Source: Mesostigma viride (lineage: Eukaryota > Streptophyta > Mesostigmatophyceae > Mesostigmatales > Mesostigmataceae). Taken from it: a stretch of 64,000 bases of DNA. How positions within the stretch are numbered: position 1 is the first letter of the stretch; every line of letters begins with the position of its first letter. Below the pieces are notes generated by a model, which had not been told where the DNA came from, ran no database searches, and saw nothing but the letters and a program-made list of their open reading frames with translations. Positions 1,340 through 56,579 of this stretch are shown piece after piece. The stretch spans positions 2,712,733-2,776,732 of the forward strand of contig RPFO01000027.1 of assembly GCA_009746045.1 (NCBI GenBank), in the 5' to 3' direction. The translations under genes and the position numbers were made by a program.

Positions 1340-4300
1340 GCTACTGTCCCTGGACACCATGAACCTTGAGGTCATCCTCAAGAGTGGCTCGCCCTCCCAG
1401 CGGTCGCACGCGCAGCGCATCATGCCGCTGGTCCGCAACCACCACCTGCTGCTGTGCACGCTTCTGCTGGCCAACGCGGCCGCCATGGAGGCGCTGCCCA
1501 TCTTCCTGGACCGCCTGGTGGGGCCTCTGCTGGCTGTCCTGTTCTCTGTCACCGCGGTCCTCATCTTCGGGGAGGTGCTGCCGCAGGTGGGTGTTTGTGC
1601 TTGCGATGGGAGCGTGTGATGGCAGGTGCTGCCGCAGGTGGGTGTTTGTGCTTGCGATGGGAGCGTGTGATGGGAGGTGCTGCCGCAGGTGGATGTTTGT
1701 GCTTGCGATGGGAGCGTGTGATGGGAGTCGCTGCCGCATGTGGTAGCCGGGGGTGGAGGGGCTACCGGTCTGCACGTTCGGGATGGGTGGTGTCTTCTTA
1801 TCACCTTAGCATGATGTGCTATTGTGTGACGGGAATGGGTAAGTGGAGGGGCTACCGCCTGGGCGTTGGGACTTCCGAGGACACCCTCTCTTCTTCGCAT
1901 GGTGGGGTGGCATCCGAAAGCCTCACGTTGCCATCCCTCGTGTGTCTGCGCCGTGTGATGGGGACGCGTGCGGAAGGTACCTCATTCCTGTGGCCCACCC
2001 CCCTCCCTCATCACCCGTGGCCGCCCATCCGCGCACACCCCTGCCTTGTCACCTGTGTTTGTTTCCGTACTTGTTGTCCCCATGTATGTATCACGGCTGG
2101 TCGCGCCCCCCCCCCTCGCCCATCCCCCACGCCCACCCCCTTTGACCCACCCTTGTCCACCCTCCTGGTCCACCCCTCAGGCGGTCTGTTCCCGCTACGG
2201 CCTGGCCATCGGCGCGCACCTCTCCTGGCTCGTCTGGACGCTCGTGTTTCTGCTGTCGCCGGTCGCATGGCCCCTGTCCAAGGCGCTGGACTGCCTGCTG
2301 GGCAAGTCGCACGGGAGCTACTACAAGCGGGCCGAGCTGAGGGAGCTCGTGGGCCTGCACTCGGCGCGGCTGGACGGGGAATCGGGTGGCGCCAGCAGCA
2401 TAATGGAGAGGGGCAGAGGGGGGGATGAGGGCGGCGAGTATGGCCGCGAGCGGTGAGCAGCGCCAGCAGTTAATCGTATGCATGTAGGGCGCGAGCGGTG
2501 CGTAGCCAGCAGTGGGTCGTGTGCATGTAGGGCGCGAGCGGTGGGTCGTGTGCATGTAGGGCGCAAGCGGTGGGTCGTGTGCATGTAGGGCGCGAGCGGT
2601 GGGTCGTGTGCATGTAGGGCGCGAGCGGTGTGCAGCGGTGGGTCGTGTGCATGTAGGGCGCGAGCGGTGGGTCGTGTGCATGCAGGGCGCGAGCGGTGGA
2701 CAGAAGCCACAAGATGGCGTCATGAGACGTGAGAGGTGCTGGTAGTAGAGCATATGAAGGGCGGTAGAGTAAATGTTAGGGCACATTCCCATCCATGAGT
2801 CTGGTGGGTGGCGGCGGTACTGCAGCCACCAGAGCAGGCGGCCCAGCGCGGTCAGGGGCCGAGTTCGTTGGTTCGGTGGAAGGCCGACAGAAACTGCGAG
2901 ATGGGGTCGATTGCAACCACTTGGGGATGCAAGCAGTGGTCGTGTTCTTCCATTATGATGTGGATGTGTTCGGATGCGTCCTCTTGTACTGGGCCGGGGG
3001 TCGGGGTGCCATTGGTGTATTCAGCCGTGCATTAATCAGCGCATTATTCGGTGCGCTCATTGGTGCATTCACTAGTGCATTCATGAGTGCGGTGTGAAGG
3101 GACGGCAAGACTACGGGGTTATGATTTGAGGGGTATGGAATTGTGCTTGAGTCAGTGAAATCTAAGCGGATAGCAGGATGACACGCGTAGCCATGGGGAG
3201 GCAGGGTGCCTCTCAAGTCCTGCGGAATCCTAGTCGCCTGCAAACCGACGCCAGCGGGTTATACACGCTAGCCATGATGGCCCCGTGCCAACCCCGGCTC
3301 CTGTCCTCCTCTTGTGTGGCCTTCACGCGGCAGCAACAGCATGCTTGCTGCGGAAGATGCTTGCTGTTTAACCCATGCCTTAAGATTGTTCCTGCGTCCA
3401 GTCACTGCGATGCTGGATGATCCTGGTGTGGCGACGCGCGCGAGGGGAGCAGGGAGTGACCAACACTTAGAAACATTTAAGTCTGTTACATAGTGACCAA
3501 CACTCACATAGTAACATATTAGTATGTTACATAGTGACCAACAGTTACAAAGAAACATCTTTTGTCTATTCCATAGTGACCAACACTTGCGTAGAAACAA
3601 AATGAGGGTGGGTTGTTTATGGGTTGATTCTACTTATGTGCCACTGCAGGGGAGTCAAATTTGAGGTGACCGCTGGCAGCAGTTACTACATGCCGTCACT
3701 AATTCCTGTGAGCATGCTTCTGTGAGCATGCTGTACTGACAGTTGTGTGCTGATGGCGCGGGAGGCCAACATCCTCCCACAATCAAGAAGGCATCAGCAG
3801 CCGAGAATCTGCAGTTGCCGGAGGGAGTTTCTGTACTAATGCACCGTACTTGCTTGCCATCGCCATGATTTTTTGGACGATGGAACCGCAGCAGCGACAG
3901 CTGCGTGCTCACCGCGCAAGAGGCCACCATCATCCGTGGCGCGCTGGACATGCGGGATAAGCGCGTCAAGGTGGCCATGACCCCGCTCGCGCGCGTCTTC
4001 TCCCTCCCCATGACCGACAAGCTCAACGCAGCCACCGTGGAGCGCATACTGGCCAGCGGCCACAGCCGCGTCCCGGTCTACCGCTCCACCCCCGACACCA
4101 TCCTGGGCGTGCTCATGGTCAAGAAGCTGATCGGGTACGACCTGCAGCAGGGGATCCCGATCATGGAGCTCAACCTGGTGCGCGTGCCGCACATCGCTGC
4201 CGACATGAGGTGAGGGGGGGGGGAGGACATGAGGGGAGAAGGTTGCTGCGGTCGTGGTGGGATAGATTTGCCTCGCTCACATGAGGTGAGCGCTGTGAAG

Positions 4301-56579: not shown

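Follow-up and report, generated by a model that had tools for sequence, protein, structure and literature searches.

Copies of splice borders inside the introns of Mesostigma viride, and the short exon part that they carry

How often does an intron contain copies of its own exon–intron border, and by what process would such copies arise? The question is raised by a 64,000-nt stretch of Mesostigma viride DNA (the window, meaning the whole stretch analysed), which lies on contig C335 of the sampled 440-Mb assembly. A preliminary description of the window reported that introns of its CNNM, proteasome beta, YCF54 and site-2 protease (S2P) genes contain degenerate direct repeats of the neighbouring border, here called echoes, and proposed that these represent a mode of intron growth. 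Our comparisons across this and other genes indicate that border echoes are a real feature of the genome, beyond the window.

Gene models were built from open frames, splice sites and family matches, a single continuous frame being demanded. On these predicted models all four window genes have a continuous frame with GT..AG introns, 21 in total (five in CNNM, nine in S2P, six in the proteasome gene and one in YCF54). Splicing raises the Pfam scores: Peptidase_M50 reaches the value listed below from 41 and 45 bits for single exons, and Ycf54 from 80.4 bits for a single exon. The closest PDB chain to the proteasome subunit is 7qve_t, which we take to be from spinach. The predicted genes are as follows.

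1340–7689, + strand: predicted CNNM gene, continuous frame; Pfam CNNM 90.8 bits, CBS 40.7 bits
1340–1586, 2181–2452, 3901–4209, 4687–4753, 5362–5421, 6956–7689, + strand: CNNM exons; exons upstream of 1340 lie outside the model
14676–20889, + strand: predicted proteasome beta gene, continuous frame; Pfam Proteasome 135.5 bits; PDB 7qve_t
14676 (partial)–14736, 14950–15057, 16026–16107, 16986–17115, 17895–18037, 20057–20143, 20815–20889, + strand: proteasome exons
37848–40032, − strand: predicted YCF54 gene; Pfam Ycf54 110.5 bits, profile positions 1–92 of 92
39797–40032 and 37848–38025, − strand: YCF54 exons, with the intron at 38026–39796
43784–56578, + strand: predicted S2P gene of 10 exons, continuous frame; Pfam Peptidase_M50 184 bits, with a PDZ domain
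43784–44298, 45426–45559, 46494–46579, 47603–47751, 49087–49162, + strand: S2P exons 1–5
52771–52839, 53934–54065, 54755–54826, 55443–55574, 56496–56578, + strand: S2P exons 6–10

The remainder of the window holds several other features. Long open retroelement frames occupy 57590–61864 (+ strand), of which 61169–61864 matches Phage_integrase (PF00589, 29.8 bits); from these frames the whole is likely a tyrosine-recombinase element, presumably DIRS-like. The 1146-aa frame that precedes 61169–61864 has no match to a Pfam family. A LINE-type reverse transcriptase frame (PF00078, 34.7 bits) lies at 35659–36810 (− strand), adjoined by a 440-bp tandem repeat at 35044–35899 whose unit contains an ATGG/CCAT-type microsatellite. 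A perfect (CCAT) array of 188 copies is found at 27324–28076, and a similar (TCCA) array at the window start, 1–85. Finally, a leucine-rich-repeat frame (LRR_6, 41.1 bits) at 33394–34125 (+ strand) is open for 243 aa without an intron, while its neighbours are intron-rich.

An independent sample was taken from introns of the unrelated CCT, kinesin motor and MCM genes of the same genome, whose limits were set with the help of profile positions, reading frame and splice-site scores derived from the window genes. Of 73 exon pairs tried, 70 were solved and three gave no solution; five solved introns were left out on score, margin or length (> 4 kb), so that 65 were kept. The main test set thus comprises 21 window and 65 independent introns, 86 introns and 172 borders in all, from predicted models. 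Five extra exon pairs yielded four introns that enter only the array counts and the planted-duplication background described below, giving an array set of 90 introns, 69 of them independent. Since contigs of the assembly reach 14 Mb, a short-read artefact is an unlikely source of the repeats. Most hits of conserved families outside contig C2011 are split by introns; C2011 itself (1347332–1348840, 86408–88192 and others) carries full-length intronless copies of Cpn60 (1–489) and HSP70 (1–599) and is possibly a bacterial contaminant.

Echoes were sought by aligning 30-nt segments, taken at fixed offsets from each border, to their own intron and comparing the scores with those from 200 dinucleotide shuffles. 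An echo was called where a segment over the border (exon −30..0 or −15..+15) did better than all 200. By this measure echoes are present at 46 of 172 borders (30 donors and 16 acceptors) and in 41 of 86 introns, with about two expected by chance. The independent genes contribute 33 borders in 29 of 65 introns. In the window there are 13 such borders in 12 of 21 introns (CNNM 1–5; S2P 2, 4, 7 and 9; proteasome 4 and 5; YCF54 1), which bears out the earlier statement that at least ten introns, in all four genes, are affected. When the 30 exon nucleotides at the window borders are taken alone, p ≤ 0.005 is reached at 8 of 42 and p ≤ 0.05 at 14 of 42, a count in which two proteasome donors are one base off.

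The matches are directional and confined to the exon edge. For the outermost 30 exon bases a direct match is seen at 32 of 172 borders, an inverted match at 2 of 172 and a match to the edges of other genes in 11 of 1720 comparisons, in agreement with the description of the repeats as direct and border-spanning. The preliminary description had proposed comparing border segments with shuffled introns and with segments inside exons; exon segments 30–60 bases deep match at only 3 of 172 borders. Exon-internal segments, inverted matches and other genes' edges all fall at 0–3%, and intron-internal segments at 2–22%. On the donor side of the independent introns the last 30 exon nucleotides beat all shuffles in 16 of 65, falling to 4, 2 and 1 introns at depths of 15, 30 and 45 nt and to none of 53–63 beyond; on the acceptor side the edge segment does so in 8 of 65, the next two in 2 and 1, and deeper ones in none of 52–65.

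Donor echoes lie at 0.06–0.49 of the intron and acceptor echoes at 0.48–0.90. The spacing between echo and border ranges from 45 to 885 nt and is mostly below 200 nt, 36 of 42 clear echoes being within 200 nt of their own border. In the window the closest clear copy is 45–181 nt away, with the exception of an old YCF54 copy at 885 nt. The echoes and arrays in the window are listed here.

974–1227, + strand: degenerate acceptor echoes before the CNNM exon at 1340 (matches 974–1003 and 1168–1227), about 363 and 139 nt upstream; this intron lies outside the 86-intron test
1570–1743, + strand: donor array of CNNM intron 1, 3.4 copies of a 51-bp unit; its first copy includes 17 nt of exon end and the donor at 1587
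2445–2672, + strand: donor array of CNNM intron 2, with a 43-bp unit inside which a 29-bp array is nested; 8 nt of exon
3743–3777, + strand: acceptor echo in CNNM intron 2, 158 nt before the border in use; 35 nt of exon (26/35)
4312–4358, + strand: donor echo in CNNM intron 3, its copy of the border 135 nt downstream; 33 nt of exon (24/33)
5287–5308, + strand: CNNM intron 4 acceptor echo, 64 nt upstream; weak core, 24/37
6775–6799, + strand: acceptor echo in CNNM intron 5, 181 nt upstream; 25 nt of exon (21/25)
17759–17789, + strand: acceptor echo in proteasome intron 4, 136 nt upstream; 31 nt of exon (24/31)
18115–18135, + strand: donor echo in proteasome intron 5, 92 nt downstream, with a further copy at about 674 nt
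39144–39802, − strand: YCF54 donor array, 23-bp unit, 28.7 copies; 6 exon nt and the donor lie in the first copy; near 38911, at 885 nt from the donor within the intron, is an older copy that includes 30 nt of exon
45653–45694, + strand: donor echo in S2P intron 2, about 126 nt downstream; 33 nt of exon (28/33)
47748–47959, + strand: S2P intron 4 donor array, 49-bp unit, 4.2 copies; exon part only 4 nt
54146–54178, + strand: donor echo in S2P intron 7, 110 nt downstream; 30 nt of exon (26/30); GT lost
55638–55666, + strand: donor echo in S2P intron 9, 92 nt downstream; 29 nt of exon (27/29); GT lost

S2P intron 5 contains, at 50418–50750 and 51890–52210, stretches of about 300 bp that are near-identical by eye and are separated by an unclassified insert.

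The unexpected and unusual part of the finding, absent from the preliminary description, is how little exon each echo carries. Of the 42 clear echoes (core ≥ 22), 36 have a unit of at most 200 nt; in these, exon makes up a median of 0.26 and a maximum of 0.40 of the unit, and in none does this share exceed 0.5; the longest exon part among all 42 is 52 nt. Uniformly placed duplications planted in the same background and measured alike (1144 of 1480 detected) have a share above 0.5 in 54% of cases and an exon part longer than 52 nt in 44%, so that finding no exon part above 52 nt in 36 echoes has a probability of 6e-10. Measurement bias was considered as the cause of the short share and is excluded by these planted duplications. 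The limit is seen in acceptor echoes also, and in the young border arrays, where the exon overhang is 4–28 nt for units of 23–83 nt. Because it is held by the ten units shorter than 80 nt as well (share 0.10–0.40), the evidence points to a limit that is proportional rather than a fixed length.

We consider, with a probability of roughly three in four, that the echoes are fossils of local tandem duplications that straddled a border by chance, the outermost sites remaining in use and the copies decaying. A tandem duplication, with a unit mostly of 45–200 nt, would happen to cross an exon–intron border, and would be tolerated only while the spliceosome keeps to the first donor or the last acceptor, that being the outermost site. 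Under this condition the mRNA would not change, and the added copy, decoy site included, would become intron and decay. The exon half of the echo, compared with a frozen exon, would stay recognisable longer than a copy lying between two free intron stretches. It is less certain that duplications which include more than about 50 nt or 40% exon are missing because a decoy with enough exonic context would be spliced and selected out.

Several observations agree with this origin. The copies run in the direct orientation, stay close to the border that they repeat and form arrays when young. In the youngest border arrays, those at CNNM intron 1, S2P intron 4, YCF54 intron 1, L011.1, L028.2 and L034.2, the copies match at 94–97% and straddle donors. 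The coding frame of the predicted models suggests that the outermost sites are those used, and the decay of the extra copies appears near-neutral. For 31 of the 46 echoes (core ≥ 24 of 37, unit ≤ 260 nt) it could be asked whether the intronic half of the unit is repeated too: it is in 15 of 31 (p < 0.05 against shuffles), or in 10 of 31 at p ≤ 0.05 when judged against other positions in the same intron. In the other 16 of 31 no repeat of the intronic half is detectable, though some of their exon halves are well kept; this counts against a tandem origin, if not strongly, as the test favours well-kept exon halves. Growth of introns by this route, as proposed before, is upheld in so far as border copies add intron length and recur in introns of the other genes at the frequency given above.

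The alleles C887 and C1641 are 93–97% identical over 5.5 kb aligned, of the 9.8-kb C887 stretch, and differ by four short indels of at least 8 nt. Two of these are tandem duplications, of 18 and 43 nt, whose position relative to borders is not established. The two alleles also differ by one 3.1-kb insertion. This insertion, in one allele of a CCT intron (4045–7170 in L019 against 4041 in L018), has flanks that overlap by 6 nt and is probably a mobile element. For S2P, a search with a 2.7-kb stretch brought up no other full-length copy.

The preliminary description also stated that donor echoes always lie downstream of the used site and acceptor echoes always upstream. The positions fit, but 'always' is partly a matter of definition, as only introns were searched. 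The mRNA is unchanged only when the first donor or the last acceptor is used, and the direction rule therefore follows with no special process needed. When the 90 introns were extended by at most 80 exon nt at either end, one array lying wholly in exon was seen.

Rows of decoy splice sites, likewise reported before, are indeed present: of 42 echoes, 32 retain their splice dinucleotide. These dinucleotides and the exon halves, which are often better kept than the intron halves, might suggest that echoes are retained for a function, for instance as decoy or alternative splice sites. We regard this as quite improbable. The dinucleotides are preserved only about as well as the adjacent positions, GT doing no better than its flanks, and the good preservation of exon halves is what the test selects for. 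In-frame use of echo sites was also considered and rejected, since unit lengths (42 of 46 echoes, core ≥ 22) show no excess of multiples of three (16/16/10 modulo 3, P = 0.42).

Are borders favoured over the rest of the intron? The 90 introns contain 90 tandem arrays of period at least 12, which make up 16.7% of intron bases, and young arrays are spread all over the introns. Eight arrays cover a border, all at donors. Uniform placement, with an exon overhang of at most 45 nt and at most one unit, expects 2.2 at donors and 2.2 at acceptors (P = 0.002 for donors, P = 0.08 for both), four of the eight being from the window itself, which was chosen for attention because of its arrays. A comparison of 8 observed with 8.6 expected is superseded, as its overhang was allowed beyond one unit. 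The 69 independent introns have four border arrays against 2.8 expected (P = 0.29): four against 1.4 at donors (P = 0.047; 0.033–0.065 by assumed overhang) and none against 1.4 at acceptors. For old echoes, a simulation with a 45-nt exon limit gives a border rate of 9–14%, compared with 20% in the independent genes and 19% in the window, a 1.4- to 2.2-fold difference; the simulations are simple, with hand-set rates and interior match rates of 0.10–0.58, and allow a comparison of shape only.

The all-donor location of the border arrays, which a simple tandem-duplication model does not predict, and the excess of echoes above the exon-limited simulation both count against that model. The earlier claim that borders are favoured is not established: the excess of young arrays is marginal at donors and is not borne out at all independent borders together. 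A mild border preference, stronger at donors, is allowed by the evidence, which does not need it. Border targeting is not required as the main cause by the young arrays of independent introns, but in view of the old echoes and the marginal donor value it was not rejected outright. These data do not discriminate among the strand slippage, R-loops and targeted breaks suggested before.

What, then, keeps the exon part short? Under one reading splicing filters the duplications: copies would survive only with an exon content below about 40% or 50 nt, and the limit would then gauge the flanking exon required for a site to be used. Of the possible causes we slightly prefer such selection against convincing decoys, though it is unproven, and we hold the reading tentatively, at somewhat less than an even chance. 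Echoes with at least 30 exon nt have lost GT or AG in 6 of 14 cases, the two longest included, compared with 4 of 28 shorter ones (P = 0.06), but the difference is gone at a 35-nt cut (2 of 7 against 8 of 35, P = 1.0). The proportional form of the limit also counts against selection, as a fixed need for exon context explains it poorly. Alternatively, breakpoints may be tied to splice borders, with duplications starting just inside the exon, which would account for both the short share and the border excess; nucleosomes that shield exon bodies and leave introns and the outer 20–50 nt of exons exposed, R-loops, or polymerase paused at donors are possible causes. The short share of the young arrays, the donor arrays of the full set and the surplus of old echoes over simulation all argue for such breakpoints, whereas the independent introns give only the marginal donor value, no excess over all borders and no acceptor arrays. 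Moreover, acceptor echoes obey an equal exon limit, so that a cause acting at donors alone is insufficient. On balance we think border-tied breakpoints less likely than not.

Two further origins can be weighed against the same data. Old border echoes remain visible for longer because their exon half is frozen, and uniform tandem duplication, with no preference and no exon limit, could on this account merely appear to favour borders. Its simulated border rates at five hand-set rates, 17–55%, bracket the 27% observed at donors; they exceed the 13% at acceptors. It also predicts matches for 13–39% of segments 30–60 nt deep, where 2% (donor) and 1% (acceptor) are observed, and its pure form is refuted by the exon share of the planted duplications, which leaves it very improbable. 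Less probable still is an origin from spliced RNA by way of cDNA fragments, or from insertions flanked by long target-site duplications. Mobile elements are common, the 3.1-kb allelic insertion with its 6-nt flank overlap being an example, and by eye the S2P intron 7 echo appeared to run into the next exon. Continuation into the neighbouring exon is, however, no better than into exons of other genes (0 of 42 at p ≤ 0.05), and the spacing varies widely while donor echoes remain near donors. Introner or transposon insertion is likewise not supported, the spacing being 45–885 nt and the young copies tandem.

Lengthening of introns is usually told as transposon insertion; here plain mutation leaves its record at 46 of 172 borders, and intact-looking decoy sites adjoin real ones. 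If the exon limit reflects splicing, the choice of the outermost among near-identical sites becomes testable in one organism, and the exon length needed per site becomes a natural experiment over many introns of one genome. Gene predictors should be used with caution where correct-looking borders recur inside introns.

Tandem duplication is known as a source of new introns (PMC4974935, PMC2891723), and the available parts of these accounts describe a similar event, a local duplication with splice signals that is absorbed as intron and leaves the mRNA unchanged. The potato case given there duplicates the end of an intron and the start of its exon, and in the yeast case the intron extends across several copies. 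That process makes a new intron, whereas here old introns lengthen and the old border is still used; it also differs, as far as the available parts go, in that here copies occur at about a quarter of borders with a limited exon part. Novel intron positions in Drosophila, by sliding or tandem duplication (PMC2891723), share a duplicated proto-splice site but, in the portion available, are single gains in exons, without border copies inside their own intron. Direct repeats near splice sites (PMC11782384) are alike in being direct and at intron borders; the accessible text compares the 5' with the 3' border (≤ 40 bp) as a sign of insertion, whereas in our introns one border recurs beside itself. 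The accessible portions of the Haematococcus genome paper (PMC7617258) and of a review of microalgal splicing (PMC12702839) do not mention border copies, and that of a paper on splice-site-creating variants (PMC11718197) is not relevant to them. In open-licence full text, a scope that leaves out most subscription journals, we found no account of introns growing by copies of their own border at such a rate, nor of an exon limit. There is a likeness to intronic minisatellites as well, which most of the young border arrays match in period and copy number; unlike ordinary ones, the border arrays take in 4–28 nt of exon, and every copy has a splice site. We conclude that the echoes represent an ordinary mutational process at unusual density, together with an unexpected rule for the exon share.
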